Assembly (NCBI GenBank): GCA_030765065.1
Contig: CM060990.1
Span: forward strand, 215,489,290 to 215,553,289
From: Deroplatys truncata
Lineage: Eukaryota; Arthropoda; Insecta; Mantodea; Mantidae
Direction: 5' to 3'
Length of the DNA: 64,000 nucleotides
Shown here in pieces: positions 28,541 to 64,000 of the stretch. Positions within the stretch are counted from its first letter, which is position 1, and each line of letters begins with the position of its first letter. The position numbers and the translations under genes were made by a program. The notes below the pieces were generated by a model, which saw nothing but the letters and a program-made list of their open reading frames with translations, did no database searches and was not told where the DNA came from.

Positions 28541-29215
28541 AGCTGAGCTGAAATGATGAACCAGGCTTCATCGCCTAGAGCCACATCACCTGAGCAAGCA
28601 CCTGGAACCAAGCAGGCAGTGCCTTCTCCAGTTGGCCAAACAAACATCCTCAGACTCAAATCTCTTGTAGTGACAACACGCAAAAAAGAACGCATCACAG
28701 TCCACAACATTGGTGACCACCAACGAAGCTGCACCAGAGGGTATCACAGCACAACTGGAAGCCGTTCAACTCACCACTGCCAACCTGCTGGCCTTCTAAA
28801 AGATGATACTGCAACATGGTTCCTGCAGGCAAAGCAGTCTTCACAGTGCGCACGCTTCCACTGCATCGTGGGACAACTTCCATGACAGATGGTGGTTCAG
28901 ATAGTTGATCTTGTGGCCAACCCAGTGAACCAACACTACCAAGTGCTGAAGCAGTGGCTGCTCGAGATCTATGCACCAAAGGGGCGACAACAGCTGCAAA
29001 AATAGCTCGAGGATACCCAGCTAGGCGACCAGAAGCCGTAACACCTACTACGAGTAATATGCCACCTGGCGGGAGCCAGCACACATGAGGAACTACTCCA
29101 ATTCCTCTGGCTGCGCAAACATCCACCCCAGACACAAGCCCTACTGGCAGCATGGGAAGAAGAATCCTTGGACCGAGTTGCCTGAATTGCAGACTGCACC
29201 TTGTAACAGAACTCG
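28541..29215 (+). pseudogene. Ty3/gypsy-like gag fossil
   Basis: Frame-hopping translation gives DDTATWFLQAKQSF (family pattern: W-F-x-Q-x-E-x-x-F), then LLEIYAPKGRQQLQK, LEDTQLGDQKP and HLLRVICHLAG, then LLQFLWLRKHPPQTQALLAA, which is the capsid-like gag landmark series (LGDRKPSxLL, LWLxRLPxxVQAIL). Multiple frameshifts and stops. No protease or RT and no LTR is present here; E4 begins about 6 bp further on and may have interrupted or abutted it. Confidence 0.65.
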
Positions 29216-29220
29216 GGTAG

Positions 29221-31260
29221 TGATGATGATGATGATGAGATAGGGTTTAAGGGCGCTAAACATCTAGGGTCATCAGCGCCCTTACAATGTATGAAATGTA
29301 AAACCCCAAAACTAATACATGGTACACAAACCCACTATGTCAAAAACTAAAAGAAAAACCAAATACCAATACCTAAAAACCAACACACTAAAAGCATTGT
29401 CAATAAAAGAGTAAAACAATGTATCAAGAACTGCAGAATGCGAGGGACATGAGCGTCATATGTCCGCCGGGGAGAAGAACCCATTAAAACAGACAATAGA
29501 AAATCACAGAGCTAAAAGACGCTCAACGCATCAAATGCACCGATTAAAACCACTGTCACTTATAAAACGTAAAGGCAATTCTACAGCACGCGCGTCGTCT
29601 GCCAAAACATTGGCTACGCCAACAGGAAGCCCATACGAACTAGGAACGGAGCTAAAACTTAACGCTCTGATAAAATGTGATGCACCAGTAAGGGGGAATC
29701 ACACTGATCACAGAGTGGTGCGGGCTCACCACTGAGCAGGTATCTATGGCTAAAAAAACAATAACCGATACGTAAACGAGTTAAAATCACCTCTTCTCGA
29801 CGAAAGGAGCGAGAAGAAGTACCCCAGACCAACGGAAGAGGTTTAACCTCCCGCAACTTGTTCCCCCTAAGAGCCGCCCAACCATCGCGCCAGCGCGAGA
29901 GGATACGGTATCGTAAAATAACATAAAAATCTGAAGAAGGATCAACACAGGTAAAACATCTGGGTGATAAAAGCGCCGATATGGGAGCGGCGTCGGTAGA
30001 CTTGTTCCCTGATATACCCACATGACCTGGAATCCAAATGAAGGAGACGCTGATGCCAGAACCACCAAGCGAGTGGAGCAGGTCATGAATGCGCTGTACG
30101 GAGGGTGGTAAGTGTACAGCGCGCTAATACTCTGAAGGGCACTCAGAGAATCCGTACAAACAACACAACGCCGTAAGACGTGCCGCTGAATGTATAAAAC
30201 ACATTGATAGATATTAAAAAGTTCGGCGGTATAAATCGAACATTGCCCGGGTAAACGAAAACTAAAACTATGTGCACCGAAAACAAAGGCACATCCTACT
30301 CCAACATCAGTCATAGACCCATCAGTATAAATAAAATGACAGTCCCCGAATTGTGCCTGTAGTACTAAAACTGCGGATCTAAGGACTGAAGCAGGGGTCT
30401 CATTCTTCGGCATCGACGTTAACCCAAGGTGACAGTGGGCCTCAGCGCGCGACCGAGGAGAAAACGCGTTTCCCCCCGAGGAAGGGCCGGCGCTGGCGTA
30501 ACCTGCAAATGCCGAAGTAGCTGTCGAAATCGAACCCCTGGAGGAAGCAATGCAGAGGCTAATTAAATAGTGGCGATCAAGCGACTTCTCGAAAATTAAC
30601 TCGAAGGACCGGTGGTCAGGCAAGCTTGAGATTCGACAGGCACAGCTGCACAAAAGCAACTCACGCCGGAAGGACAGCGGAGGTTGTGCAGCTTCAGCAT
30701 ACAGACTGGGAACAGGGCTGGTTGGAAACGCCCCGTAGCGACTCTTAAACCACGATGGTAAATTGCATTCAATCGACGTAACACAGATGGACGTGCCGAC
30801 GAATAAACAATGCACCCGTAATCAAGCTTGGATCGGACCAAAGAGCGATAAAGGCGAAGGACGGTCCGATCAGCTCCCATGGATGTGCCACTTAAAACAC
30901 ATAAAAGATTAAGAGAACGGTCACACTTTGCTTTTAAAAAGGAAATGTGCGAAGTCCAACACAACTTCCTATCAAAGATCAACCCCCAAAAATTCACCTC
31001 GTCTGCAAAAGGAAGTATTTCCGGCCAAGATGGAGAGAGGGCGGAGGGAAATACTTCCGGCGCAAGAAGTTGATGCAGACGGATTTCTCGGTGGAGAAAT
31101 TAAAGTCGTTGGCGGTACTCCAGGCGCAAAGACGGTCTATACAGCTCTGGAGACGGCGTCCGAGCAGACAGGTATGCCGTGAACTGCAATAGATCACAAA
31201 ATCGTCAACAAAAAGGGACGATGAAATGCCAGTTGGAATACAATCAACAATGGGGTTGAT
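29221..31260 (-). mobile_element. E4 (3' segment): host copy of the nested stack
   Basis: The 3' end is at 29221 with TGA repeats and the hairpin 29249-29283 (9-bp stem, 17-nt loop, loop partly divergent). The segment runs through the 3' UTR, RNase H and RT up to ATGGGGTTGAT (31250-31260), where E5 is inserted. It lacks the long ATAACA tract of the E2 type. E4 resumes at 37306, and its 5' part must lie beyond the window after E6. Confidence 0.9.
29531..31249 (-). pseudogene. E4 ORF2, RNase H and RT C-terminal half
   Basis: At least three frame changes separate the RT palm end (SSRHTCLLGRRLQS, 30994-31197), the thumb (FDRKLCWTSHISF, 30596-30997), the RNase H (YTDGSMTDVG, TAEL, CTDSLSAL; 29787-30815) and the C-terminal part with the finger (CDQC...H...C; 29659-30021). 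The RNase H motif GNESAD is GNKSTD here. Clearly inactive. Confidence 0.88.
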
Positions 31261-31414
31261 GATGATGATGATGATGATATGCGGTTTAAGGGCGCTAAAC
31301 TGCTACGGTCATCAGCGCCCTTACAATGTATAAAAGATAAGGTCAAAATATAAAACAGGTAAAAGAACCGCATAGTTAAAAACGGGACACAAACCCGCGA
31401 TGTTCAAAAAGCTA

Positions 31415-31495
31415 AAACTAACAATAATAGAACAATAACAAAATAACAATAACAACAATAATAACAAGAACAACAATAATAACAATAACAACAAT
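31415..31495. repeat. (ATAACA)n-type repeat in the E5 3' UTR
   Basis: AATAAC/AATAAT units at the same position as in E2, shorter. Confidence 0.75.
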
Positions 31496-31661
31496 ACAAA
31501 GTTCTGAAAAACCAACACACTAAAAGCATAGGCAATAAAAGATTAAAACGTGTCAGGAACTGTCGAATGCGAGGGACATGAGCGCCATATGTCCACTGGG
31601 GATAAGAGTTCCCATAAAAACAGACAGAATAAAAGTACTAAGCTAACAGACGCCCAACGCA

Positions 31662-34600
31662 TTAAATGCGCAGATTAAAATCACTGTCATTAATAAAACG
31701 TAAAACACATTCTACAGCACGCGTGTCGTCTGCCAAAACGTTGGCTAGGCCAACAGGCAGACCCACACGAGCACGCAATGCAGCTAAAACCTGACACTCT
31801 GTTAAAATGTGACGCACCGTTAAGGGCACGTCACACTGCCCACAGAGTGGTGCGGGGTCACCACTGAGCAAATACCTATGACTAAAAACACAATGTCCAA
31901 TTTGTAGACGAGCTAAAATTACCTCTTCCCGACGACAAGAACGAGAAGAGGTACCCCAGAGCAACGGGAAAGGCTTAACCTCCCGCAACTTGTTCCCCCG
32001 GAGGGCCGTCCACTTATCGCGCCAGCGCGAGAGGATGCGGCGACGTAAAATAACACACGAATCTGACGAGGGAACAACAGAAGTAAAAAATCTGGGTAAT
32101 AAAATCGCCGATTTCGCCGCGGCGTCGGCAGACTCATTACCTGAGATGCCCACATGACCTGGAATCCACATGAAGGACACGCTGATGCCAGAGACACCAA
32201 GCGAGTGGAGCAGGTCATGTATGCGCTGTACGAGTGGGTGGTAATGGTACAGAGCATGAATAGTCTGAAGGGCACTCAGAGAGTCCGTACAAAGAAAACA
32301 GTGCCGTAAGTCGTGCCGCTGAATGTATAAAACAGATTGATAAATGCTAAAAAGTTCGGCGGTAAAAATTGAACATTGTCGAGGTAAACAAAAAGTAAAA
32401 CTCTGTACACCAAAAACAAAGGCACATCCTACTCCAACATCAGTCTTACACCCATCAGTATATATAAAATGACAGTCCCCGAACTGCGCCTGTAGTTCTA
32501 AAAAGGCGGATCTAAGAACAGAAGCAGGGGTCGCATTTTTCGGCATCGACGTTAGCCCAAGGTGGATGTGGGCCTCAGCGCGCGACCATGGAGGAAAGCG
32601 CGTTTCCCCTTGGGTAAGGGCCGGCGCTGGCGTAACGTCCAAATGCCGAAGTAGCAGTCGAAATCGAACCCCTGGAGGGAGCAATGCAGAGGAGCTAACG
32701 AAATATTGGCGATCAAGCGAATCCTCGTAAAATACATCGAAGGACGGGTGGTTAGGCAAGCTTGAGAGTCGACAAGCATAGCTGCACAAAAGCATCTCAC
32801 GCCGGAAGGACAGCGGAGGCTCTGCAGCTTCTGCGTACAGACTGGGTACAGGGCTAGTTGGAAAGGCCCCTGTAGCGACTCTTATGCCACGATGGTGAAT
32901 GGCATTCAATCGACGTAACACAGATAGACGTGCCGACGAATAAACAATACACCCGTAATCAAGCTTGGGTCGGACCAAGGAGCGATAAAGGCGAAGAAGG
33001 ACGGTCCGATCAGCTCCCCAGGATGTGCCACTTAAAACACGTAAAAGATTAAGAGAACGGTCACACTTTGCTTTTAAAAAGGAAACGTGCGAGGTCCAAC
33101 ACAACTTCCTGTCAAAAATCAACCCCAAAAATTTCGCCTCGTCTGCAAACGGAAGTATCCCTGGCCCAAGATGGAGAGAGGGCGGAGGGAAATACTTCCG
33201 GCGCCAAAAGTTGATGCAGACGGATTTCTCGGCGGAGAAATTAAAGCCGTTGACGTTACTCCAGGCGTAGAGACGGTCGATACAGCTCTGGAGACGACGC
33301 TCGAGTAGACAGGTCCGCCGTGAACTACAATAAATAGCGAAATCGTCAACAAAAAGGGACGATGAAATGCCAGGTGGAATACAATCAACAATGGGGTTGA
33401 TAGCAATCGCAAAAAGTGTGACACGAGTACAGAGCCCTGCGGTACTCCGTTCTCTTGAATAAAACGACGAGATAAAACCGAGCCCACACGTACACGAAAG
33501 ACGCGGTCCGTCATAAACTCCCGAAGAAATATGGGAAGACGACCGCGGATATTCCAATCGTGAAGTGTACGTAAAATGCCGCCCCTCCAACAAGTGTCAT
33601 AAGCTTTCTCCAGGTCAAAAAATACAGCCACTGTTTGACACTTTCTCAGAAATCCATTCATAATATGCGTCGACAAGGACACCAGATGGTCGACGGTAGA
33701 GCGATAGCGACGAAACCCGCACTGAGCGTTCGCTAGAAGTTTCTGAGACTCAAGCCACCATGTCAACCGCCCGTTGATCATGCGCTCCATCACCTTGCAA
33801 ATGCAACTGGTGAGGGAGATAGGGCGGTAGCTGGAAGGTAGTTGGCGATCCTTCCCAGGCTTAAGTATAGGGACAATGGTGGCTTCGCGCCAAACTGAAG
33901 GAAAAAGGCCGTCTCGCCAAATACGGTTATAGACCTGTAAGAGAAAGAGTTTACTGTCGGGTGAAAGGTTCTTTAACATCAGGACATGAATGCCGTCCGG
34001 CCCAGGAGCGGAGTGCCTAGAGCAATGAAGAGCGTGCTCCAGCTCCCTCATTGTGAAAAGTTCATTATAACACTCAATATTAGCAGACCGAAAATTAAAG
34101 GTGTCGGAATCCAGCCGGTCTTTGATAGAGCGAAAGCCGGCGGAATAATGGTCTGAACTGGATACCGCCTCAAAGGCAGCACCCAGAGTGTTAGCGATGG
34201 CAGCCGGATCTACTATAGTGGCATAGGAAACCTGAAGGCCAGAAACAGTACAATGCGACACTTTGCCTGAGAAGCGACGAAGTTTATGCCAAACAACAGA
34301 TGAAGGCGTAAAGCGATTAAAAGACTCGACAAAACGAGCCCACGACGCCTTCTTGCTATCCTGAATAATGCCACGAGCCCTGGCGCGCGATTGTTTAAAA
34401 GTCACCAAATTATAAAGTGTAGGGTGTCGCCGAAACACCCTAAGTGCAGTTCTACGGGCACGAACGGCGTCCCGACAATCCTCGTTCCACCACGGAACAG
34501 GTGGCCGCCGAGGATGAGAGGATGAACGGGGTATTGCGCATTCGGCGGCAGAGAAAATAATAAACGTAAGGTGCTGCACTAGTTGGTTAATGTCGGAGAA

Positions 34601-35350
34601 GGGCTGGTCGTCAAAATGCACGAGGCTGGAATACAAGCTCCAGTCGGCTTTTGCGAATATCCAGGTAGCTACTCTGGAATGCTGTACGTGGTGCGACAAA
34701 AGAGAAACGATGCAGGGGTAATGGTCGCTGGAGTAGGTATCAGTGACGACGTTCCACTGAAGACGATGAGTAAGCTGGAGTGAGCAAATGGCAAGGTCCA
34801 GATGAGAGAAGGTACCAGAAGAATCAGAAATAAAAGTAGGTGCACCTGTATTGAGGATGGAAAGATTGAAGTGGTAAAAAATGTCGGAAAGAAGAGTTCC
34901 CCTCGCACAAGCCCTTGGCGAATCCCACAGTGGGTGATGGGTATTAAAATCTCCCAACAGGAGAAATGGTGTTGGGAGAGCGGACAGGAGAGCTCGAATG
35001 TCCGCGGGAGCGAGGGGAGACGACGGAGGTGAATATACAGAGCAAACAGAGAAGAAAAAACCGGGTAACTGCAATCTAATGGCAACAGCTTGCAAGTCGG
35101 ACGTAAGAGCGAGAGTTTGAAAATGAACGTCGTTACGCACCAACAACATGACACCTCCATGAGCAGGAGCACCCTCCTCCGGTTCAAGATCGTAGCGAAC
35201 CGGAGTGTACCCTCGGAGATCGAAAGGGTCGTTAGGGCGAAACTTGGTCTCCTGCAAACACACGGCCATAGGTGAATGGGAACGCAATAAAAGTTGCAGT
35301 TCCGCCCTATGCGATCGTACACCACGTACATTCCAGGTCAGGATAGCCAT
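31662..35350 (-). pseudogene. E5 ORF2, single 2-bp deletion
   Basis: The start ATG is at 35350 (MAILTWNVRG). Endonuclease and RT motifs are intact through GVPQGSVL, where a 2-bp deletion near 33424 (GACACGAG for GACACTGAG) shifts the frame. The shifted frame reads VSHFLRLL. The original frame resumes as VTLFAIAINP and runs open through FVDD, RNase H (YTDGCKTDVG, with Ser to Cys next to the catalytic Asp) and the zinc finger to the normal stop. One lesion separates it from a full-length frame. Confidence 0.92.
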
Positions 35351-35370
35351 GAATAAAAGGGATAAACTGT

Positions 35371-36659
35371 CTACTTAGAAGGGCGGCTTAAAAGAATCTT
35401 GTGCTTAACCTTTGGGCTCGGGCTTTTTGTATGGAGTTGGTCAGACTCCATAGTTTCCTCGGAGGGAGGGCCCACGCGCTCAGTGCCAGAAACCGATTCA
35501 AGCGCCGTGAGTCGGTTCTGGGTGGCGATGGGTGAGGGGTGCGGCTGAGCGCGGCTTGTCCCAGGACCTTCCTGGGACAGCGACCTCCGAGGAGGAGAAG
35601 GTGAACTTTTGTTACCGCGCGCACGCGGAGGGTCTTTCAAAAAATCTTCCCTACGAAGTTTCTGCTTGGGTTTCTTTTCAACGGCTTGCGACTTCGTTGA
35701 CTTGGGACCAGGTTTATACGGCTTGGTAACTGTAGCCTTAATGGACGGCCGGATGGTAGTGGCGGTTAATCCAGTCATGGTCCAGGTCTGAGTTTCGGCA
35801 TCCACTCGTGGTACTGGCGAGGCAACAACAGAACTAAATGTGCCAGATCGCAGGAGTGAAGGTTGGCGCGCATGGTAACGCCTCCGGGCTTCAGCGAAGG
35901 AGAGAATTTCCTTTACCCGGATCTCGTGGATCGCCTTCTCGTCCAAGTACCGCGGACAGTCGGCAAACGAAGCAGAATTAGACCCTTTACAATTAACGCA
36001 GACGGGGGCTGTTGAACAGGTACCTTCGTGTTAGGGCTGGCTACATGTTGCACAGATGTTAACGGCACTCTTACATGAGACTTGCGTATGCCCAAAACGT
36101 TGGCATTTAAAACAACGCAGACGTCTAGGAATATAAGGCCTCACAGAAATCTGTTCGTACCCTGCGGAAATGCTCGTGGGCAGATCGACGCCATCAAATG
36201 TAATAAACGGGGTACGAGTGGGTACCAATACGCCGTCGCGTTTGGCCTGCACTCGATGCATTGCAGTCACATTTTGATCGGATAGATAGTCTACTAGATC
36301 CTCGTCCGATATACCATCGAGGCTATGGATGGTAACGACGCCCCGACAGGAGTTCAATGTGCGGTGCTTCTCGACACGGATGGGATAACCGTGGAGAAGC
36401 GTAGCGCGCAACAAGGTCTTACTTTGCTGATCGGACTTAGTTTGTGTCAATAAGGATCCATTCCGTAAACGAGTGCAGGATTGAACCGCACCAGCAATAG
36501 CATCTATGCCCTTCTGAATTATAAAAGGGTCACCTTCTCAAAGTTTTGTCCTTCTTCTGTTCTTGAAATGACCAAGTAACAACCAGATGACGGCGGTGCT
36601 ACTTCTGTTACAATGACTTTTCGGCGCTTGTTTGTATTAATGGAGGAAGGGTGCTCCAT
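35371..36659 (-). pseudogene. E5 ORF1, one frameshift and one stop
   Basis: The start is the shared MEHP ATG at 36659. A 1-bp deletion near 36528 (GGGTCACC for GGGTTCACC) shifts the frame within the first 50 codons. A nonsense change (TCA to TAA on the sense strand, near 36033) falls just after the CATCSQP knuckle. Downstream sequence (MDEKAIHEIRV...) is open to the normal stop. The N-terminal half is of the E8 type (TKSDQQSKTLLRATLLHG). Confidence 0.9.
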
Positions 36660-37294
36660 AGCGAAATAAATCCTCCACCATTGCAACCGTCTCCGACCTC
36701 GGGCTCTGACATCCCGGGCGTTACCCCGGCTTGGGTGAGTGGCCTATCTATACCAGACTCACCCCAGGGTCACACCTCCCAGATCATAGACAGAGGGACC
36801 CAATCGCCGTCGGAAGCCAGCAGCTCATGCAATGGCCCCCCCGCGGGACTGCAGTTGAGCAGCAGATACGAACACATACCCTACATGACGACCCCGGGTG
36901 GTGGGGATGACGCCATTACCCACTCACCCAGCTGCGCACCCAGTGCGCGGGTATCCGTCAGGCTGTGTCCACGGAGGATTAAAAGAAAAGATAAAAGAAA
37001 TAAAACTGCGTGGGCGTTTCGGATGCAAGGTAGGCCGGCGAGGAAGAAAAAGCGATGCGTAAATGAATGGACGTGGTGCGAAATCTGCAGAAGTAAATGA
37101 GAAGACAGAAGCGATGGCGAGGGGCGAGATGTAATGATATGCACAGAACGCACGAGAGCCTACCTTGAGTCCCCCGGTCACGAGAACGAACCCACCTCGA
37201 CCGGACGGGGATGAAAGGGTGAAAATGGCTATGGATGGCTCGGGTACCCCGGGTGCGCCTAACCCGTACTCACAAAAGGTGAGCCCCTGGGGGG
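36660..37294 (-). promoter_or_regulatory. E5 5' UTR and terminal hairpins
   Basis: The inner part matches E2. The outer part from about 37040 differs and matches E7 instead (GGGATGAAAGGGTGAAAATGGC on the plus strand). Hairpin 2 is CTCAC-CTTTT-GTGAG, so the upstream ATG of E2 and E3 is absent. Confidence 0.55.
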
Positions 37295-37778
37295 ATGGGG
37301 TTGATAGTAATCGCAAAAAGTGTGACACTGAGTACAGAGCCCTGCGGTACACCGTTCTCTTGAATAAAACTACTGGATAAAACCGAGCCCACACGTACAC
37401 GAAAGACGCGATCCGTCATAAACTCCCTAAGAAATATGGGAAGACGACCGCGGAAATTACATGCATGGAGTGTACGTAAAATGCCGCCCCTCCAACAAGT
37501 GTCATAAGCTTTCTCCAGGTCAACACACACAGCCACTGTTTGACACTTTCTCAGAAATCCGTTCATAATATGCGTCGACAGAGACACCAGATGGTCGACG
37601 GTAGACTGATGGCGACGAAATCCGCACTGAGCGTTCGCCAGAGGTTGCTGAGACTCAAGCCACCATGTCAACCGCCCGTTGATCACGCGCTCCATCACCT
37701 TGCAAAGGCAACTGGTGAGGGAGATAGGGCGGTAGCTGGAAGGTAGTTGTCGATCCTTCCCAGGATTAAGTATAGGGA
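37295..37778 (-). mobile_element. E4 (middle segment): RT coding sequence between E5 and E6
   Basis: Starts with the right copy of ATGGGGTTGAT and continues the E4 RT exactly where it left off. The minus-strand frame shows PILNPGKDRQLPSSYRPIS, CVDLEKAYD (usually FFDLEKAYD, catalytic Asp kept) and GVPQGSVLSVTLF. It is cut by the 3' end of E6 after TATAGGGA (37771-37778), within the ATIVPILKPG region. Confidence 0.9.
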
Positions 37779-39178
37779 TGATGATGCTAATAATGTGTAG
37801 GGGCTTAAGGGCGCTCAACTGCTATGGTTATTAGCGCCCTTACAATGTTTAAATATAAAATTGAAAAGTCAAGAAACTAAAAAAAAAAAAAACACGCAAA
37901 CCCGCTTGGTCATAAACACTAAAAAAAACAACATACGAAAGGCTAAAACTACACACTAAAATCAAGGTCACTAAAAGAATAAAACAACGTGTCAAGAACT
38001 GTAAAATGCAAGGGACATGAGCGCCTTATGTTCATCGGGGAGAAGAGCCCCATTAAAACTGACAATATAAAATCTCTAAGCTAAAAGACGCTCAGCGCAT
38101 CAAATGCGCCCATTAAAACCAATGTCACTTATAAAACGTAAAAGACATTCTACAGCATGCGTGTCGTCTGCAAAACGTTGGCTATGCCAACAGGCAGACC
38201 CAAACGAACGCGCAGTGGAGCTAAAACTTGACACTAAGTTAAAATGTGACGCACTGTTAAGGGGGCATCACACTGCTGACACAGTGGAGCGGGGTCACCA
38301 CTAAGCAGGTAACTATGACTAAAAAGGCAATGTCCAATTCGTAAACGGGCTAAAAGTACCTCTTCTTGACGTGTAGAACGAGAAGAGGTACCCCAGACTA
38401 ACGGGAGAGGTTTAAGCTCCTGCAACTTGTTCCCCCGGAGGGCCGTCCACTCATCGCGCCAAAGCCAGAGGATGCGGCGACGTAAAATAACACACGAATC
38501 TGACGAGGGAACCACAGAGTTAGAAAATCTTGGTAATAAAAATGCCGATTTGGCAGCAGCATCGGCAGACTCGTTCCCTGAGATGCCCACATGACCTGGA
38601 ATCCACATGAAGGAGACGCGGATGCCAGAGGCACCAAGCGAGTGGACCAGATCATGTATGCGCAGTACAAGGGGGTTGTAACTGTACAGCGCGCGAATAC
38701 TTTGAAGAGCACTCAGGGTGTCGGAACAAATAAAACAGTGACGTAAGTCGTACCGCTGGACGTATAAAAGTGACTGATAAATACTAAAAAGTTCGGCGGT
38801 ACAAATCGAACATTGCCCGGGTAAACGAAATGTAAAACTACGATGACCATCAATAAAAGCACAACCTACTCCAACATCAGTCTTAGACCCATCAGTATAT
38901 ATAAAATGAAAGTCTCCGAGCTGCGACTGAAGTTCTAAAAAAGCCGATCTAAGAACTGAAGAAGAGGTCGCAATGTTCGACATTGACGTCAAACCAAAGT
39001 GACAGTGGGCCTCAGCGCGCAACCAAGGAGGAAAGCGCGTTCACCCCCTGGGAAGGGCCGGCGCTGTCGTAAAGTCCAAATGCCGAAGAAGCTTTCGAAA
39101 TCGAACCCTGGAGGGAGCAAGGCAGAGGAACTAACAAAAAATTGCGGATAAAGCGAATCTTCGTAAAATACTTCGAAA

Positions 39179-39180
<2 letters not shown>
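37779..39180 (-). mobile_element. E6 (3' segment): inserted in E4
   Basis: Begins with a short degenerate tail (TGATGATGCTAATAATG) and the hairpin 37807-37841 of the second loop type (loop contains GGTTATT on the plus strand). The 3' UTR is shorter and lacks the ATAACA tract. Runs to ACTTCGAAAGA (39170-39180), where E7 is inserted. The right-hand target duplication of E6 lies outside the window. Confidence 0.9.
38100..39169 (-). pseudogene. E6 ORF2, RNase H and C-terminal part
   Basis: A 262-residue open stretch (38234-39022) carries YTDGSKTDVGVG, TAEL, CSDTLSAL, PGHVG and GNESADAAAK, so the RNase H set is complete. Shifts separate it from the C-terminal tail (including the finger region near 38240) and from the connection region toward 39169. 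Confidence 0.88.
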
Positions 39181-39210
<30 letters not shown>

Positions 39211-42200: not shown

Positions 42201-42308
42201 GAATAATGCGACGAGCCCTGGCGCGCGATTGTTTAAAAGTCACCAAATTATCAATTGTAGGGTGTCGCCGAAACACCCTAAGCGCAGTTCTACGGGCACG
42301 AACGGCGT
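39181..42308 (-). mobile_element. E7 (3' segment): inserted in E6
   Basis: A long TGA tract (39181-39210) is followed by hairpin 39221-39255 of the E6 loop type. The 3' UTR joins an ORF2 C-terminus of the E3/E8 type. Runs to ACGAACGGCGT (42298-42308), where E8 is inserted. E7 boundaries are the near-exact duplication ACTTCGAAAGA (39170-39180) / ACCTCGAAAGA (50791-50801). Confidence 0.92.
39502..42297 (-). pseudogene. E7 ORF2, RT to C-terminus
   Basis: Four frames in series: 41635-42276 (linker and RT start, KPGKDRQ), 40544-41644 (RT with FFDLEKAYD, GVPQGSVLS, FVDD and thumb), 40116-40487 (connection and RNase H start, FTDGSKTVAG) and 39502-40266 (rest of RNase H and finger). One shift is a single missing G near 41635 (CACCTTCAAATG for CACCTTGCAAATG). 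Otherwise the motifs are intact. Confidence 0.9.
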
Positions 42309-42464
42309 TGATGAAGATGATATGCGGTTTAAGGGCGCTAAACTGCTGCGGTCATCAGCGCCCTTACAATGAGTAAAATATAAGGTCACAATATAAAAGA
42401 CAGGTAAAAAACCGCATAATTAAAAAACGGGACACAAACCCGCGATGTCAAAAAAGTTAAAAAT

Positions 42465-42570
42465 AACAATAGAATAACAATAACAAGAATAACAATAACA
42501 ATAAAAACAATAACAATAATAACAATAACAATAAAAACAATAACAATAATAACAATAACAAGAATAACAA
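42465..42570. repeat. (ATAACA)n-type repeat in the E8 3' UTR
   Basis: Same higher-order arrangement as E3 (AATAACAATAAAAACAAT units repeated). Confidence 0.8.
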
Positions 42571-50155: not shown

Positions 50156-50801
50156 AGCGAAAGAAATCCTCCACCATTGCAAACGTCTCCGACCTCGGGC
50201 TCTGACTTCCCGGGCGTTACCCCGGCTTGGGTGAGTGGCCTATCTATACCTATCTCACCCCAGGGTCACACCTCCCAGAACATAGACAGAGGGACCCAAT
50301 GGCCGTCGGAAGTCAGCAGCTCATGCAATGGCCCCCCCGCGGGACTGCAGTTGAACAGCGGATACGAACGCATACCCTACATGACGACCCCGGGTGGTGG
50401 GGATGACGCCATTACCCACTCACCCAGCTGCGCACGCGGTGCGCGGGTATCCGTCAGGCTGTGTCCACGGAGGATTAACATAAAAGGTTAAAAGAAACTA
50501 AAACTGTGTGGGCGTTTCGCACTCAAGGTAGGCCGGCGAAGAAGTAAAAGAGACGTGTAAATGAATGGGCGTGGGGCGAAATGTGCATAAACAGAAGAGA
50601 AGAAAGAAGCGATGGCGAGGGGCGACGTGGAATGAAATGCACAGAACGCACGAGAGCCTACCTTGAGTCCCCCGGTCACGAGAACGAAACCACCTCGACC
50701 GGACGGGGATGAAAGGGTGAAAATGGCTATGGATGGTTCGGGTACCCCGGGTGCGCCTAACCCGTACACAAAAGGTGAGCCCCTGGGGGGACCTCGAAAG
50801 A

Positions 50802-53404: not shown

Positions 53405-53424
53405 GAATACAAGGGATAAACTGC

Positions 53425-54083
53425 CTACTTAGGAGGGCGGCTCAAAATTACGTTCTGCTTAACCTTTGGGCTCGGGCTTTTAGTACGGAGTTGGTCAGAC
53501 TCCATAGGCTCCTCGAAGGGAGGGCCCATGCGCTCAGTACCAGAAACCGATTCATCGGCCGTGAATCGGTTCTGGATGGCAATGGGCGAAGGGTGCCGCT
53601 GAGCGCGGCTTGTCCCAGGAGCATCCTGGGACTGCGACCTTCGAGGACGAGAAGGTGAACTTTTCTTTCCGCGCGCACGCGGAGGGTCTTTAAGAAAGTC
53701 TTCCCTGCGAAGTTTCTGCTTGGGCTTCTTTTCCGTGGCTTGGGACTTCAGAACCTTAGGACCAGCTTTAGATGACTTGGTAAGCGTGCTCGAGACGGAT
53801 GGACGGATGCCCGGATGGTAGTGGCGGTCAAGGCAGTACTGGCAACGCAACAACAGAACTAAATGTACCAGATCGCAGGAGCGAAGGTTGGCGCGCATGG
53901 TAACGCCTCCGGGGTTCAGCGAAGAACGGTTTTTTCTTTATCCGGATCTCCTGGATCGCCTGCTCGTCCAAGTACCGCGAACAGTCTGCAAATGACGCTA
54001 AATGAGGCCCTTTGCAATTGACGCAGACGGGAGCTGTTGAACAGGTACCTTCGTGTGAGGGCTGGCTACATGATGCACAGATG
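53425..54083 (-). pseudogene. E6 ORF1, C-terminal half
   Basis: The Ser/Pro/Lys-rich tail is open at 53425-53898. Upstream a shift precedes the third knuckle region and the segment ends at the E9 insertion within CATCSQP. The tail sequence (KVLKSQATEKKP) groups with E10 rather than with E2. Confidence 0.82.
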
Positions 54084-54969
54084 GTGGTGGTGGTGATGAT
54101 GATGATGATGATGATGAGATGGGGCTTAAGGGCGCTAAACTGCTAAGGTTATTAGCGCCTTACTATGTGTAAAATATAAAATGTAAAAGTAAAAAAAAAT
54201 TTAAAAAAAACACACACAAAATGCTTGATCAAAATCACTAAAAAACACAACAGAACAAATACTAAGATCTACATACTAAAATCATGGTCAACAAGAGAAT
54301 AAAACAACGTGTCAAGAACTGTATAATGCGAGGGACACGAGCGCCATATGTCCACTGGGGAGGAGTGCCCCCATTAAAAGATAATGTAAAATCAAACAGC
54401 TAAAAGGCGCTCAGCGCATCAAATGCGACGGCTAAAACCCATGTCAGTAATAAAACCTAAAATACATTCTACAGCATGCGCATCGTCTGCCAAAACGTTG
54501 GCTATGCCAACAGGCAGACCCACGCGAACGCGCAATGGAGCTAAAAGTTGACACTCTGTTAAAATGTGACGCACCATTAATGGCATATCACACTGACCAC
54601 ACAGAGGTGAGGGGGCACCACTAAGCAGGTAACTATGGCAATGTCCGATTCGTAGACGAGCTAAAATCATCTCTTCCTGACAGAAGAACGCGAAGAGGTG
54701 TTCCAGATTAACGGGAGAGGTTTAACCTCCCGCAACTTGTTCCCCCGGAGGGCCGTCCACTCATCGCGCCAAAGCGAGAGGATGCGGTGACGTAAAATAA
54801 AACGCAAATCAGACGAGGGAACAACAGAGGTAAACAATCTGGAGGATAAAATCGCCAATTTGGCAGCGGCGTCGGTAGACTCGTTCCCTCAGATGCCCAC
54901 ATGACCTGGAATCCACACGAAGGACACGCAGATGCCAGAAGCACCAACGGGTGGAGCAGGTCATGAATG
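54084..54969 (-). mobile_element. E9 (3' segment): inserted in E6 ORF1
   Basis: The tail is a mixed (GGT)n then (GAT)n tract (54084-54115), followed by the hairpin 54128-54161 with one C missing from the right arm. Runs through the 3' UTR and ORF2 C-terminus to AGGTCATGAATG (54958-54969), where E10 is inserted. Confidence 0.9.
54419..54957 (-). pseudogene. E9 ORF2, C-terminal part
   Basis: C-terminal finger CGQCDMPLMVRHILTEC (54419-54670) and the preceding segment (54667-54858), with a shift between them. RNase H GHVG is present but GNESAD is degraded. Confidence 0.85.
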
Positions 54970-55270
54970 ATGATGCTGATATGCGGTTTAAGGGCGCTAA
55001 ACTGCTATGGTCATCAGCGCCCTCACAAACTATAAAACTGAAAGTCCAAAAATAAAATACGAGTAAAAAACAGAATAGTCAAAAATACTCTAAAATCAGT
55101 CATCAATTGTTAAAACCACTATAAAAACCACGTGAAACAATTCAATAAAATAGTAAAACGTGCAAAGAACTGTAGAACGCATAGGACATGAGCGTCATAT
55201 CTCCACAGGGGAGTAGAGCCACCATTAAAACGGCAATATAAAATCATAATGTTCAAGGACACACAATGCA

Positions 55271-58200
55271 TCAAATGCCGCCGATTAAAATTACTGTCAT
55301 TGATAAAACGTAAAAGACATTCTACAGCATGCGCGTCGTCGGCCAAAACGTTGGCTATGCCAACAGGCAGGCCCACACGACTGCGCAATGCAGCTAAAAC
55401 TTGACACCCTGTTAAAATGTGACGCACAGTTAAGGGTGCATCACACTACTCGCATACTGGTGCGGGGTCACCACTGAGCAGGTATCTATGGCCAAAAAGG
55501 CAATGTCTGATTCGTAGACGGGCTAAAAGCACCTCATCCCGACGAGTAGAACGAGAAGAGATACCCCAGACCAACGAAAGAGGTTTAACCTCCCGCAACT
55601 TGTTCCCCCTAAGAGCCGCCCACTCATCCCGCGAGCGCGAGGATACGGTACGTAAAATAACATAAAAATCTGAGGAAGGAACAACACAGGTAAAACATCT
55701 GGGTGATAAAATGCTGATGTGGTAGCGGCGTCTGCAGACACGTTGCCTGAGATGCCCACATGACCTGGAATCCACACGAAGGAGACGCTGATGCCAGAAC
55801 CACCAAGCGAGTGGAGGTCATGAATGCGCTAAACGAGCGCGTGGTAACTATACAGCGCGTGAATACTCTGAAGGGCAATCAGAGAGTCCGTACAAAAAAC
55901 ACAACGCCGTAAGACGTGCCGCTGAATGTATAAAACACATTGAAAAATACTAAAAAGTTCGGCGGTATAAATCGAATATTGTCCAGGTAAACGAAAAGTA
56001 AAACTATGTGCACTAAAAACAAAGGCACATCCTAGTCCAACATCAGTCTTAGACCCATCGGTATATATAAAATGAACAGTCCAGGAACTGCGCCTATAGT
56101 TATCAAAAAGCAGAACTAAGGACGGAAGCAGGGTCTCATTTTTCGGCATCGACGTTAACCCAAGGTGACAGTGGGCCTCAGCGCGCGACCATGGAGGAAA
56201 ACGCGTTTCCCGCCGTGGAAGGGCCGGCGCTGGCGTAACGTCCAAATGCCGAAGTAGCAGTCGAAATCGAACCCCTGGTGGGAGCAATCCAGAGGAGCTA
56301 ACGATATAATGGCGATCAAGGAATCCTCAAAAAATACCTCGAAGGACGGGTGGTCAGGCAAGCTTGAGAGTCGACAGCCATAGCTGCACAAAAGCATCTC
56401 ACGCCGGAAGGACAGCGAAAGCCCTGCAGCTTCAGCATACAGACTGCGAACAGGTCTGGTTGGAAAGGCCCCCGTGGCGACTCTTATTCCACGATGGTGA
56501 ATGGCATTCAATCGACGTAACACAGATGGACGTGCCGACGAATAAATAATGCACCCGTAATCAAGCTTGGATCGGACCAAAGAGCGATAAAGGCGAAGGA
56601 CGGACCAATCAGCTTCCCAGGATGTGCCACTTAAAACACGCAAAAGATTAAGAGAACGGTCACACTTTGCTTTCAAAAAGGAAATGTACGAAGTCCAACA
56701 CAACTTCCTATCAAAAATCAACCCCAAAAATTTTACCTCGTCTGCAAACGGAAGCATCTCCGTCCTAAGATGGAGAGAGGGCGGATGGAAATATTTCCGG
56801 CGCCAGAAGTTGATGCAGACGGATTTTTCGGCGGAGGAATTAAAGCCGTTAGCGTTACTCCAGGCGTAGAGACGATCGATACAACTCGGAGACGGCGTTC
56901 GAGTAGACCGGTTCGACGCAAACTGCAGTAAGTTTCAAAATCGTCAAATATAAGGGATGATGAAATGCCAGGTGGAATACAATCAACAATGGGGTTGATA
57001 GCAATTGCAAAAAGTGTAACACTTAGTACAGCGCCCTGCGGTACTCCGTTCTCTTGAATAAAACGACTAGATAAAACCGAGGCCACACGTACACGAAAGA
57101 CGCGGTCCGTCATAAACTCACGGAGATTCCATGCATGGAGTGTACGTAAAATGCCGCGCCTCCAACAAGTGTAATAAGCTCTCTCCAGGTCAAAAAATAC
57201 AGCCACTGTTTGACACTTTCTCAGAAATCCGTTCATAATATGCGTCGACAGAGACACCAGATGGTCGACGGTAGAGCGATGGCGACGAAATCCACACTGA
57301 GCGTTCGCCAGAAGATTCTGAGACTCAAGCCACCATGTCAACCGCCCGTTGATCACGCGCTCCATCACCTTGCAAAGGCAACTGGTGAGGGAGATAGGGC
57401 GGTAGCTGGAAGGTAGTTGGCGATCCTTACCAGGTTTAAGTATAGGGACACTGGTGGCTTCGAGCCGAACGGAAGGAAAAAGGCCGTCCTTCAAACACGA
57501 TTATAGACCCGTAAGATAAAGCGCTTACTGTCGACTGAAAGGTTCTTTAACAGCAGAACATGAATGCCATCCGGCCCAGGAGCGGAGTGCCTAGAGCAAT
57601 GAAGAGCATGCTCCAGCTTCCTCATTGTAAAAAGGGCATTATGCCATTCCGTATTAGCAGACCGAAAATTATAGGTTGGGGAATCCAGCCGGTCTTTGAT
57701 AGAGCAAAAGCCGGCGGAATAATGTCCTAAACTGGAAACCGCCTCAAAGGCAGCACCCAGAGTGTTAGCGATGGCAGCCGGATCCACTATGGTGGCATTG
57801 GAAAACTAAAGGCCAGAAACAGTACAATGCGACACTTTAACTGAGAAGCGACAAAGTTTATCCCAAAGAACAGATGAAGGCGTAAAGCGATTAAAAGACT
57901 CGACAAAACGAGTCCAAGAAGCCTTGTTGCTATCCTGAATAATCCGACGTGCCCTGGAGCGCGATTGTTTAAAAGTCATCAAATTATCAAGTGTAGGGTG
58001 TCACCGAAACAGCCTAAACGCAGTTCTATGGGCACGAACGGCGTCCCGACAATCCTCGTTCCACCACGGAACAGGCATTCGCCGAGGTTGAGAGGATGAA
58101 CGCGGAATTGCGCGTTCGGCGGCAGAGAAAATCGTAGACGTAAGCTGCTGCACTAGTTGGTTAATGTCCGCGAAGGGCTGGTCGTCAAAATGCGCGAGGC

Positions 58201-58919
58201 TGAAATACAAGCTCCAGTCGGCTTTTCTGAATCTCCAAGTAGGTAGTCTGGAATGCTGTACGTGGAGTGATAAAAGAGAAACGATGCAGGGGTAATGGTC
58301 TCTGGAGTAGGTGTCAGCGACGACGTTCCACTGCAGACGACTAGCAAGCTGGAGTGAGCAAACGGCAAGGTCCAAGTGAGAAAATGTACCGGAAGAATCA
58401 GAAACGTAGGCTCGCCTGTATTGAGAATAGAGAGATTGAACTGATCAAAGATGTCAGAAAGAAGAGTTCCCCTCGTTCAAGCCCTTGGCGAACCCCACAG
58501 GGGGTGATGGGCATTAAAATCTCCCAACAGAAGAAATGGTGTTGGGAGAGCGGACAGGAGAGCTCGAATGTCCGCGGGAGCAAGGAGAGACGATGGAGGT
58601 GAATACACAGAGCAAATAGAAAAGAAAAAACCGGGTAACTGCAGTCTAATGGCAACAGCCTGCAAGTCCGACATAAGAGTGAGACGTTGAAAATGAACAT
58701 TGTTACGCACTAAAAACATGACACCTCCATGAGCAGGAGTACCCTCCTCCGGTTCAAGGTCGTAGCGAACCGGAGTATATCCTGGGAGATCAAAAGGATC
58801 GTGAGGGCGAAGCTTAGTCTCCTGCAAACAAACCATCAAGGGGAATGGGAAAGCAATAAAAGTTGAAGTTCCGCCCTATGCGACCGTACATCACGCACAT
58901 TCCAGGTCTGGAAAGCCAT
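55271..58919 (-). pseudogene. E10 ORF2, many frameshifts
   Basis: The start is at 58919. Readable pieces include endonuclease (GDFNAHHPLWG near 58510; SSDHYP is changed to SRDHYP), RT (SYRPIS; FFDLERAYY, where the catalytic Asp of FFDLE is kept; SLIFDDFE, with FVDD changed to IFDD), thumb, RNase H (YTDGSKTDVG, TAEL, CTDSLIAL, PGHVG) and the finger region with CxxC degraded. A short in-frame deletion removes part of the NFRGRLPIFL region. The terminal codons carry a 1-bp insertion. Confidence 0.88.
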
Positions 58920-58940
58920 TAAGAAAAAGGGATAAACTGT

Positions 58941-60224
58941 CTACTTAGATGGGCGGCTTAAAGTTACCTTTTGTTTAACCTTTGGGCTCGGGCTTTTGGT
59001 ATGGAGTTGGTCAGAGTCGATAGCCTACTCGAAGGGAGGGCCCACGCGCTCAGAGCGAGAAACAGATTCAAGCGCCGAGAATCGGTTCTGGGTGGCGATG
59101 GGCGAGGGGTGCCGCTGAGCGCGGCTTGTCCCAGGAGTTTCCTGGGACTGCGACCTCCGAGGAGAAGGTGAACTATGCTTACTGTGAACACGCGGAGGGT
59201 CTTTTAGAAAGTTTTCTCTTCGAAATTTCTGCTTTGATTTTTCTCTGTGGCTTGTGACTTCATAGACTTTGGACCAGGTTTAGAGGGCTTGGTAACAGTA
59301 GCTGAAATGGGATGCCAGATGGTAGTGACGGTCAAGGCAGTCATGGTCCAAGTTTGAGTCCCAGCATCCTTCCGGGGTACTGACGAGGAAACAACAGAAC
59401 TGAATGTTCCCGATCGCAGGAGCGAAGGTTGGCGCGCATGGTAACGCCTCCGGGCTTCGGCGAAGGAGAGATGCTCCTTTACCCGGATCTCCTGGATCGC
59501 CGTCTCTTCCAAATACCGCGGACAGTCGCCAAATGAAGCAGAATGTGACCCTTTGCAATTGACGCAGACGGGGGCTGTTGAAAAGGCACCTTCGTGTGAG
59601 GGCTGGCTATATGTTGCACAGATGTTAACGGCACTCTTACATGAGACTTGCGTATGCCCAAAACGTTGGCATTTAAAAAACGCAGAGGTCTAGGAATATA
59701 AGGCCTCACAGAAATCCGTTCGTACGCTGCGGAATTGCTCGTAGGCAGATCGACGCCATCAAATGTTAGAAACAGGGTGCGAGTGGGTACCAATACGCCG
59801 TCGCATTTGGCCTGCACTCAATGCACCGCTGTCACCTTTTGATCGGATAGATATTCGACGAGGTCCACGTCCGATATACCATCGAGGCTATGCGTGGTAA
59901 CGACGCCCCGACAGGAATTCAATGTGCAATGCTTCTCGACATGGATGGGATAACCGTAGAGAAGCGTAGCGCCCAACAAGGTCTTTCTTTGCTGATCGGA
60001 CTTCGTTTGTGCCAATAAGGAACCATTCCGTAGACGAGTGCAGGACTGAACCCCACCAGATTTGCATCAATGCCCTTCTGAATTATAAAAGGCTTCACCT
60101 TCCCAAAGCTTTGTCCTTTTTCTGTTCTTGAAATTACCAAGTAACAACCAGATGTCGGCGGTGTTACTTCCGTTACAATAACTTTACGGCGCTTGTTGGA
60201 AATAATGGAGAGAGGGGGCTCCAT
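58941..60224 (-). pseudogene. E10 ORF1, several lesions
   Basis: The shared ATG is at 60224 (MEPPLS, His to Pro) and the usual stop position at 58941. Frames change near 60060, 59680 (loss of one base in the first knuckle, LNANVLG) and in the tail. The second and third knuckles are recognisable but altered (CSTAP Cys to Phe). Inactive. Confidence 0.85.
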
Positions 60225-60856
60225 AGCGAAAGAAATCCTCCACCATTGCAACCGTCTCCGACATCGGGCTCTAACTTCCCGGGCGTTACCCCGGCTTGAG
60301 TGAGTGGCCTATCTATACCAGACTTACCCCAGGGTCACACCTCCCAAAACATAGACAGAGGGACCCAATCGCCGTCAGAAGTCAGCAGCTCATGCAATGG
60401 CCCCCCGCGGGACTGTAGTTGAACAGCGGATACGAACATAAACCCTACATGACGAGCCCGGGTGTTGGGGATGACGCCATTACCCACTCACCCAGCTGCG
60501 CACCCAGTGCGCGGGTATCCGTCAGGCTTTGTCAACGGAGGATTAAAAGAAATGATAAAAGAAATAAAACTGCGTGGGCGTTTTGCACCCAAGGTAGCCC
60601 CGCTAGGAAAAAAAAGAGATGTGCGAATGTCGTGGTGCGAAATAGCCGGAAAGTGACAACGGAAGAAAGAAAAGATAGCGAAGTGCGGTATGAATGTAAT
60701 GCAAAGAACGCACCAGAGCCTACATTGTCTCCACGGTCACGAGAACGAACCCACCTCGACCGGACGTGGATGAATGGATTAATATGGCGATGAGTGGCTC
60801 GGGAAACCCCGGGTACGCCAACATCCGTACTCACATAAGGTGAGCTCCTGGGGAGG
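60225..60856 (-). promoter_or_regulatory. E10 5' UTR and terminal hairpins
   Basis: Matches the common inner 5' UTR with more substitutions. Outer stem CTCC/GGAG, then CTCAC-CTTAT-GTGAG. Confidence 0.55.
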
Positions 60857-60868
60857 AGGTCATGAATG

Positions 60869-63793
60869 CGCTGTACGAGCGGGTGGTAAGTGTACAGCGC
60901 GCTAATATTCTGAAGGGCACTCAGAGAATCCGTACAAACAACACAACGCCGTAAGACGTACCGCTGAATATATCACACATTGATAGATAGTAAAAATTTC
61001 GGCGGTATAATTTGAACATTGCTCGGGTAAACGAAAAGTAAAACTATGTGCACCGAAAACAAAGGCACATCCTACACCAACATCAGTCTTAGACCCACCA
61101 GTATAAATAAAATCACAGTCCCCGAATTACGCCTGTAGTTCTAAAAATGCGGATCTAAGGACTAAAGCAGGGGTCCCATTCTTCGGCATCAACGTTAACC
61201 CAAGGTGACAGTAGGCGTCAGCGCGAGACCAAGGAGGAAAACGCGTTTCCCCCCGAGGAAAGGCAGGCGCTGGCGGAACGTCCAAATGCCGAAGGAGCTG
61301 TCGAAATCGAACACCTGGAGCGAGCAATGCAGAGGAGCTAATTAAATAGTGGCGATCAAGCGACTCCTCGAAAAATAACTTGAAGGGCGGGTGGTCAGGC
61401 AAACTTGAGAGTCGACAGGCATAGCTGCACAAGAGCATCTCACGCCTGAAGGACAGCGGACGCTCTGCAGCTTCAGCATACTGACTGGGAACAGGGCTGG
61501 TTGGAAAGGCCCCCGTAGCGACTCTTATGCCACGATGGTGAATGGCATTCAATCGACGTAACACAGATGGACGTGCCGACGAATAAACAATGCACCCGTA
61601 ATCAAACTTGGATCGGACCAAGGAGCGATAAAGGCGAAGAAGGACGGTCCGATCAACTCCCCAGCATGTGCCACTTAAAACACGTAAAATGTTAAGACAA
61701 CGGTCACACTTTGCTTTTAAAAAGGAAATGTGCGAAATCCAGCTCAGCTTCCTATGAAATATCAACCCCAAAAATTTCGCTTCGTCTGCAAACGGAAGTA
61801 TCCCTGGCCCAAGATGGAGAGAGGGCGGAGGGAAAGCCTTCCGACGCTAGAAATTAATACACACGGATTTCTCGGCAAAGAAATTAAAGCCGCTGGCGTT
61901 ACTCCAGGCGTAGAGACGGTCGATACAGCTCTGGAGACGGCGTTCGAGTAGACGGGTCTGCCGTGAACTACAATAAATGGAAAAGTCGTCAACGAAAATG
62001 GACGATGAAATGCCAGGTGGAATACAATCAACAATGGGGTCGATAGCAATCGCAAAAAGTGTGACACTGAGTACAGAGCCCAGCGGTACACCGTTCTCTT
62101 GAATAAAACGTTTAGATAAAACCGAGCCCACACGTACACGAAAGACGCGGTCCGTCATAAATTTTCGAAGAAATATGGGAAGACGACCGTGTAACTTCCA
62201 TGCGTGAAATGTACGTAAAATGCCGCCCCTCCAACAAGTGTCATAAGCTTTCTCTAGGTCAAAAAACACAACAACTGTTTGACACTTTCTCAGAAATTCG
62301 TTCATAATATGCGTCGACAAAGACAGCAGATGGTCGACGGTAGAGCGATAGCGACGAAATCCGCAGTGAGCGTTCGCTAGAAGGTTTTAAGAGTTTACTG
62401 TCGGCTGAAAGGGTCTGTATCATCAGGACATGAATGCCGTCCGACCCAGGAGCGGAGTGGCTGGAGCAATGAAGAGCATGCACCAGCTCCCCCATTGTGA
62501 AAAGTTCATTATAACACTCCATATTAGCAGAGCGAAAATTAAAGGTTTTGGTACCCAGCCGATCTTTGAGAGTGCGAAAGCCGGCGGAATAATGGTCTGA
62601 ACTGGAAATCGCCTCAAAGGCAGCACCCAGAGCGTTAGCAATTGCAGCCGGATCCACTATGGTGGCTTTGGAAACCTGAAGGCCAGACACAGTACAATGT
62701 GACACTTTACCGGAGAAGCAACGAAGTTTATCCCAAACAACAGAGGAAGGCGTGAAGCGATTAAACGACTCGACAAAACGAGTCCAGGAAGCCTTCTTGC
62801 TATCCTGAATAACGCGACGAGCCCTGACGCGGGATTGTTTAAAACTAACCAAATCATCAAATGTAGGGTGTCGCCGAAACACTCTAAGCGCAGTTCTACG
62901 AAAACGAACGGCGTCCCGACAATCCTCGATCCACCACAGAACAGGAATACGCCGGTGGTAAGAGGATGATCGGCGAATCGTGCGTTCGGTGGCAGAGAGA
63001 ATCGTAGACGAAAGGTGCTGCACTATGTGGTTAACGTTAGAGAAGGGCAGGTCCTGAAAGCACACGAGGCTGGAATACAATCTCCAGTCGGCTTTTCCGA
63101 ATATCCAGGTAGGAACTCTGCAATGCTGGACGTGATGAGACAAAAGAGAAACATACAGGGGTAATGGTCGCTGGAGTAGGTGTCAGTGACGACGTTCCAC
63201 TGCACAGGACTAGCAAGCTGGATGGAGCAAACGGCAAGGTCTAAATGAGAGAATGAACCAGAAGAATCATAAATAAAAGTAGGTTCACCGGTATTGAGGA
63301 TAGAGGGGTTGAACTGATCAAAAACGTCGGAAAGAGGAGTTCCCCTCGCACAAGCCCTTGGCAAACCCCACTGGGGGTGATGGGCATTAAAATCTCCCAA
63401 CAGAAGAAATGGTGTTGGGAGAGCGGACAGAAGATCGCGAACGTCCGCGTGAGCGAAGGGAGACGACGGAGGTGTATAGGTGGAGCAAACAGAATATAAA
63501 AAGCCGGGTAATTGAGGTCTAACGGCAACAGCTTGCAATTCGGACGTAAGTGTGAGAGTCTGAAAATGATCATCGTTTCGCACTAATATCATGAAACTTC
63601 CATGAGCAGGAGTACCCTCATCCGGTTCAAGATCGTAGCGAACCAGAGTATACCCTCGGAGCTCAAAAGGGTCGTGAGGGCGTAGTTTGGTCTCCTGCAA
63701 ACACACGACCATAGGTGAATGGGAACGCAATAAAAGTTGCAGCTTCGCCCTATGCCATCGTACACCACGTAAATTCCAGGTCAGGATAGCCAT
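60869..63793 (-). pseudogene. E9 ORF2, endonuclease to RNase H
   Basis: The start is MAILTWNLRG at 63793; the endonuclease (QETKL, GDFNAHHPQWG, SSDHYP) is open for about 250 codons. The linker and RT start are at 62259-63143. A deletion near 62385 joins SADSKLL directly to the ERSLRI/FRRYRS region, removing about 70-80 codons with the RT fingers (KPGKDR, CICKVMERMI). The palm (FFDLEKAYD, FVDDFSIY) and thumb follow at 61127-62320, then a broken RNase H. It cannot encode a working RT. Confidence 0.87.
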
Positions 63794-63814
63794 GAATAAA
63801 AGGGATAAACTGTC

Positions 63815-63899
63815 TACTATTGAGGGCGACTCAAAATTACTTTCTGGTTAACCTTTGGGCTCGGCGTTTTAGTATGCAGTTGGTCAGACTACATAGGCT
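63815..63899 (-). pseudogene. E9 ORF1, last codons
   Basis: Matches the ORF1 tail of E6 and E2 (plus strand TTAACCTTTGGGCTCGG, GGTCAGACT) for about 85 bp, then stops abruptly at CATAGGCTCC. Confidence 0.75.
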
Positions 63900-64000
63900 C
63901 CTTGGCGAACTCCACAGTGGGTTGGGAGAGTGGACATGAGAGCTCGAATGACCGCGGGAGCGAGGGTAGACGATGGAGGTGAATACACAGAGCATATAGA
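63900..64000 (-). mobile_element. Endonuclease fragment of a further E-family copy
   Basis: The plus strand reads TTGGCGAACTCCACAGTGGG, then jumps to TTGGGAGAGTGGACATGAG, equivalent to two parts of the ORF2 endonuclease (compare 52970-53060). About 30-35 bp between them, including the GDFNAH codons, is missing. It follows the E9 ORF1 tail directly, so it is a rearranged junction or another copy. The window ends before this can be resolved. Confidence 0.7.

Follow-up and report, generated by a model that had tools for sequence, protein, structure and literature searches.

Self-nested, same-oriented copies of a non-LTR retrotransposon family in the mantis Deroplatys truncata

The non-LTR retrotransposons HeT-A, TART and TAHRE form head-to-tail arrays of one orientation at Drosophila telomeres, where the copies attach to chromosome ends. 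Self-nesting LINE arrays are so far known from algae and poplar, and are probable or established centromere components there. In Coccomyxa, the published account describes Zepp copies inserted in Zepp copies, giving 26 clusters of 1.5-42.3 kb (PMC3446292). Zepp, found in Chlorella as well as Coccomyxa, and the ZeppL elements of Chlamydomonas are described as targeting existing copies by nested insertion, and the same source groups Zepp with the L1 elements (PMC8226300). The poplar centromeric LINE Celine is about 6.1 kb long with two ORFs; some of its copies are self-nested (about 7% in P. simonii), and one 46.5-kb read carries nine copies (PMC11288735). The word "orientation" is absent from the main text of that paper (PMC11288735). 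Deducing temporal order from nesting is established practice, as in the REANNOTATE report (PMC2672092). For Jockey-3 at Drosophila centromeres, the source passages offered nothing on nesting or orientation (PMC10827089). A literature search over titles and abstract openings recognised no animal LINE with self-nested, same-oriented arrays.

In this study, a stack of related retrotransposons in a window of 64,000 nucleotides (the whole stretch of DNA analysed) from Deroplatys truncata was investigated. The preferred reading, given a probability of about 85%, is that an autonomous non-LTR family has repeatedly inserted into its own resident copies by target-primed reverse transcription, the guests nearly always taking the orientation of the host.

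Structure of the element family

The window is occupied by a family of 6.06-kb elements. Copy A, which lies in a Tc1-like transposase gene, was used as the ruler: element positions 1-6062 run 5' to 3' from 14887 down to 8826.

8826..14887, minus strand: copy A, complete reference, 12-bp duplication GCCCGTGCAGTA; ORF1 (12960-14333) and ORF2 (9248-12976) both open
21340..27386, minus strand: copy B, complete, both ORFs open, in non-family DNA, duplication ACATTGGACAG(AT)
3381..7927, minus strand: M3k, a distant relative in the same orientation as A

M3k is 67.8% identical to A across 3381-6955. In Pfam searches, ORF2 of both A and M3k matched PF03372, PF14529, PF00078 and the RNase H family PF00075, and endonuclease and reverse transcriptase domains were detected in the open part of ORF2 of copy E8. 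ORF1 of copy A gave no Pfam match; cysteine-rich, CCHC-like knuckles are visible in it by eye. The assignment to non-LTR retrotransposons is based on the endonuclease and reverse transcriptase in ORF2, on target duplications of variable sequence and 11-13 bp at A, B, E5, E7, E8 and E10, and on a 3' tail formed by a (CAT)n repeat downstream of a stem-loop. We take the I-like group (I, Loa, R1, Jockey) to be a candidate placement, which fits the RNase H and the CCHC-like ORF1 motifs. The best 120 of 440 relatives in a protein search were at most 45% identical.

Over the first ~98 bases of the element, A (14790-14885) and M3k (7832-7927) share 95.8% identity, and short 5' modules resembling this conserved start are also present in loci c413 and c706. 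The module may be a promoter. A search for a 5'-terminal ribozyme with Rfam gave nothing at the 5' ends and one match elsewhere with a score below the gathering threshold; the 5' ends did not show notable folding either (z 1.77 for A, 0.91 for M3k and -1.85 for E10). At the other end, A (8826-8905), B (21340-21420) and M3k (3045-3125) carry a GGGCGC...GCGCCC stem-loop ahead of the 3' simple repeat. It folds more stably than shuffled sequences in all three (z -2.8 to -4.0), and is a candidate 3' recognition structure. A and B terminate in a (CAT)n repeat, and M3k in a TC-rich one. About 2 kb to the left of B, a reverse transcriptase fragment of a LINE outside the matches of the family was seen at 18890-19450 on the minus strand.

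Closed insertions and the depth of the stack

To the right of copy B lie seven further copies, E4 to E10, in which the following segments were recognised.

29220..31260, minus strand: E4, 3' part (element 6062-3901), left flank non-family
31262..37294, minus strand: E5, complete, in E4
37295..37778, minus strand: E4 continuation (element 3911-3420), halting at the 3' end of E6
37779..39180, minus strand: E6, 3' part (element 6062-4558)
39181..42308, minus strand: E7, 3' part, in E6
42309..48355, minus strand: E8, complete, in E7; the third demonstrated level
48356..50790, minus strand: E7, 5' part, attaining the true 5' end, with an internal deletion of ~395 bp at 49164-49167
50791..54083, minus strand: E6 continuation (element 4569-1241), halting at the 3' end of E9
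54088..54969, minus strand: E9, 3' part, its 3' boundary falling in a GTG/GAT repeat and thus placed only to within a few bases
54970..60856, minus strand: E10, decayed but with both termini, in E9
60857..63902, minus strand: E9 continuation, to element 1837, with a ~196-bp deletion at 62388

The initial annotation had read four insertions from target duplications, and all four were recovered at the positions given: the 11-bp ATGGGGTTGAT at 31250 and 37295 for E5 in E4, ACTTCGAAAGA at 39170 and ACCTCGAAAGA at 50791 (one mismatch in 11) for E7 in E6, ACGAACGGCGT at 42298 and 48356 for E8 in E7, and the 12-bp AGGTCATGAATG at 54958 and 60857 for E10 in E9. Equal letters are weak evidence here, because each duplication sits inside family sequence, and three of the four sequences recur in other family copies. 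The main evidence for insertion, which is strong, is the step back of the host coordinate together with near-seamless empty sites. Across each insert, the element coordinate of the host retreats by 11-17 bp, the values of 15 and 17 including chance extension. Inserts were then excised in silico, and 60+60 bp of joined host flank were aligned to copies uninterrupted at that position, a gap being scored within 15 bp of the join. The joined flanks of E4 were identical to five copies at 109-117 of 120 bases and those of E7 to four copies at 108-114 of 120, both gapless. For E6, 98-104 bases were identical over 120 against five copies, with a gap-free join, and for E9 the values were 103-111 of 121 with one or two gaps, near the join in one of five comparisons. 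In total, 18 of 19 comparisons were gap-free near the join, the sole exception being a single gap in E9 against E4.

Such host closures are more frequent than expected by chance. In 324 kb comprising the window, its flanks and eight other loci, 12 were found, whereas 500 randomisations gave 1.43 on average and never more than 6. Eight of them contain family inserts and four non-family inserts; one of the latter, in the repeat-rich 3' UTR at c369, may be a repeat effect. Self-insertion also occurs outside the window, as F92 in F91 and as two levels in c412. For the four closed pairs of the window, the data support the view that the apparent gene array arose by self-insertion, and the duplications and empty sites rule out tandem duplication as a general cause. 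Annotation could mistake a stack of this kind for a gene cluster or for tandemly duplicated genes. In the non-family DNA that hosts E4, two open pieces had no Pfam match above the curated cut-off; this host is gag-like in look, by impression only.

The nest had been proposed to be four levels deep, E4 > E6 > E7 > E8. Three levels, E6 > E7 > E8, held up, whereas the step from E4 to E6 has a left junction only, where the 3' end of E6 meets E4 at element 3420; the fourth level is likely but not demonstrated. The proposed insertion of E9 in E6 similarly has its left junction, the 3' terminus of E9 lying against the interior of E6 at element 1241, and no resumption on the right. If E6 and E9 are inserted, remainders of E6 and E4 are expected beyond E9. 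Sequence was accordingly added on both sides (60 kb on the right, 40 kb on the left), giving 164 kb in total without N. Among the matches in the 60-kb right flank, no piece started near element 3420 (E4) or 1241 (E6). Instead, the following copy was found at the edge of the window.

63903..64000, minus strand: E11, entered at element ~2388, continuing past the window to a 5' end near 70160

Two pieces break up E11: a short 3' fragment and an insert of 3.8 kb that is not of the family. The insert, at 64094-67920 in window coordinates, shows an 11-bp host overlap, and no inverted repeat is formed by its outermost 40 bases on either side. The 5' end of E11 adjoins a copy E12 at element 402, and E12 finishes at its own 5' end, 70554, in non-family DNA, so that the stack extends to about 70.55 kb.

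Element termini lie at or within a few bases of the junctions 37778/37779, 54083/54088 and 70160/70161. The junction 63902/63903, from E9 element 1837 to E11 ~2388, coincides with no element terminus and shares only CCT. The arrangement is most simply explained by a later deletion, which probably took away the right-hand part of the stack. E11 is not E6 or E9, because both already contain that stretch; by divergence, neither E11 nor E12 could be assigned to E4, E6 or E9. E12 may represent the missing 5' end of E4, in which case a deletion of ~10 kb, by arithmetic, took the right halves of E9, E6 and E4. The left flank of E4, AGAACTCGGGTA, has no second copy across the 164 kb.

This leads to the question whether E4 is the host of E6 at all. 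E4 could alternatively be a 5'-truncated copy that inserted in the (GAT)n tail of E6, leaving a depth of three. E6 starts with TGATGATG, which is able to mask a duplication in the tail of E4, private substitutions do not separate the two copies (56:53, see below), and strong 5' truncation is known in the family from a 3' fragment of ~70-80 bp near 68530-68600. Such an event requires an unusual landing in a 3' tail, however, and if E6 had likewise landed in the tail of E9, GTGGTGGTGGT should lie to the left of E6 or E4, where it was not found. This arrangement is regarded as rather unlikely.

Orientation, distribution and age of the copies

All ten family copies of the window (M3k, A, B and E4-E10) share one strand (p=0.002). 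In the whole 164 kb no opposite-strand family copy was counted; the only opposite matches, three overlapping short ones near -13.9 kb, fall in the simple repeat of the 3' UTR. In the window, flanks and eight other loci, 31 five-prime ends were classified, 19 against family sequence and 12 against other DNA. Those adjoining family sequence comprise 18 in the same orientation and 1 in the opposite one (two-sided p=8e-5), although some ends may be tandem copies and hence non-independent. The bias persisted without window and flanks (12 of 13 same, p=0.003) and stood at 15 of 16 (p=0.0005) once three short 5' modules were removed, and for closed family insertions alone it was 7 of 8 (p=0.07). Of the three-prime ends, 33 were classified and 21 adjoin family sequence; 20 of these have the same orientation and one is opposite, belonging to the same event as the opposite five-prime end. 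In c401, one nested copy is opposite to its host.

The distribution of the family was assessed with one exact 20-mer of E4. The 4.29-Gb genome contains it 29 times, at 18 places on contig C16 (215 to 707 Mb) and at 11 on eight other contigs. C16 makes up 16.5% of the genome (p=4e-8, the places being possibly non-independent). None of 18 family rows selected independently of the 20-mer contained it exactly; the 29 places thus account for only a minor share of the family. The eight other loci are 20-kb stretches, all on C16, taken from the 28 further places; another eight places were covered by 3-kb stretches, each with one single family piece. Five of the eight loci are dense arrays with 69-98% family sequence and nesting, and three contain 18-38%; because they were picked by a family 20-mer, the loci over-represent arrays.

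A single orientation could also result from random insertion followed by the loss of opposite nests, long adjacent inverted repeats being unstable. Opposite nesting is real yet rare (1 of 19), as this explanation expects. On the other hand, the young nested copies E5, E8 and F92 are already same-oriented, and a single direction is likewise shared by the copies that landed in non-family DNA within the window and flanks (M3k, A, B, E4, F72, F91 and others), though no inverted repeat with the host could form there. Loss of opposite nests is thus a doubtful explanation for the bias. Selection in a unistrand piRNA cluster appears more improbable still. Elements in the Drosophila flamenco cluster are mostly in one orientation according to the source (PMC10643416), and the uniform strand of the window is what such selection predicts. 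Same-oriented arrays are present at several far-apart C16 loci, however, on either strand, and the stack is composed of nearly one family. As to a cause in strand composition, the AT skew of eight non-family flanks ranged from -0.01 to 0.42, with six positive in this small sample.

The age order of the copies had been expected to equal the nesting order. Private substitutions in ORF2 were counted across 48 family rows; fragments were kept, and the outgroup M3k and the too-short E12 omitted. Host-to-guest counts were 58:5 for E4/E5, 98:31 for E6/E7 and 31:6 for E7/E8, as well as 43:1 for F91/F92 in the right flank. The pairs E9/E10 (100:95), E4/E6 (56:53) and E6/E9 (94:101) were inseparable. 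A smaller set, nine family copies and both ORFs at sites unanimous in the others, gave 68:10, 183:64 and 84:31 for the first three pairs and 147:129, 68:86 and 156:148 for E9/E10, E4/E6 and E6/E9. Terminal branches agreed with nesting less well than private counts. In a ten-row tree they were 0.067 for E4, 0.025 for E5, 0.088 for E6, 0.050 for E7, 0.011 for E8, 0.083 for E9 and 0.063 for E10, and in a 49-row tree 0.071, 0.023, 0.052, 0.054, 0.013, 0.063 and 0.064, respectively. E6 was the longest of these in the ten-row tree, whereas in the 49-row tree it was about equal to E7, and the branch of E9 exceeded that of its supposed host E6. Disabling changes were 5.7 per kb in E10 versus 2.9 in its host E9, contrary to the nesting order. 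Broadly, E4, E6, E9, E10 and F91 are old, A, B, E5, E8, F72 and F92 are young, and E7 lies between by private counts. The expected order thus held for E4/E5, E6/E7 and E7/E8, and the stack records the activity history of the family as an insertion order where insertions are closed, not as a fine clock. Stacks of this kind give a clock-free relative order of insertion.

It is very improbable that the array arose from element pieces multiplied by segmental duplication or unequal crossing-over. Such a process does seem to operate nearby: consecutive copies at 102565-105924 and 105929-109346 in the right flank, which differ at 187 of 3181 sites, have a common internal gap (element 3246/3123), and at 105929 and 109351 they pass into the following 3' end through similar junctions, as after tandem duplication. 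It would not, however, explain why element termini come with 11-12 bp duplications and near-seamless empty sites in all four closed cases, nor private counts with hosts older than guests.

Mechanism and comparison with known systems

Target-primed insertion into resident copies is well supported. During insertion, staggered nicks would have produced the target duplications of ~11-13 bp, and guest copies nearly always adopted the orientation of the host. E6 in E4 and E9 in E6 would also be insertions, and one later deletion would have fused E9 element 1837 to E11 2388, with loss of the right-hand halves. A fixed target sequence, or a fixed endonuclease site, is judged unlikely, as the duplications and the host positions vary from one insertion to the next and no obvious common sequence was seen by inspection. 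The bias may stem from an RNA-protein complex that works close to the family's own loci, perhaps at the one being transcribed, and nicks one strand preferentially. With modest confidence, insertion near the family's own loci is favoured over loss of inverted nests or piRNA selection as the cause of self-landing in one direction. The wider proposal, that an RNase H-bearing LINE directs insertion to its own copies with no fixed target and in host orientation, giving directional self-recording arrays at many loci, is put forward tentatively. A possible cause would be an RNA-protein complex acting in cis on a transcribed locus and nicking the template strand.

Unlike HeT-A, TART and TAHRE, the family shows closed insertions with target duplications, 215.5 Mb inside a contig. 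A telomeric retrotransposon array is ruled out by the position of the window, C16:215489290-215553289 of 707 Mb.

The closest likeness is to Zepp and ZeppL, as far as these are described, in that LINE clusters arise by self-insertion and copies lie inside copies of the same family. Zepp and ZeppL arrays are described as mostly 3' ends, whereas the Deroplatys truncata family has many complete 5' ends, and Zepp is L1-type, whereas the mantis family carries RNase H. Coccomyxa is reported to have one cluster per chromosome, probably centromeric; the mantis family is at many loci on one contig, with 18 20-mer places on C16 alone. Celine resembles the family in length, in its two ORFs and in self-nesting, but is a plant LINE described as residing mainly in LTR elements and in CENH3 domains (PMC11288735). 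Compared with dating as outlined for REANNOTATE, there is no difference in principle, the layers here all belonging to one LINE family. Should near-uniform orientation at many loci hold, self-targeting and strand choice in target-primed reverse transcription would become directly testable. Self-nesting LINE arrays are thus already known, and to these the Deroplatys truncata family adds a different protein architecture, many loci and a strong coherence of orientation in the examined stretches.
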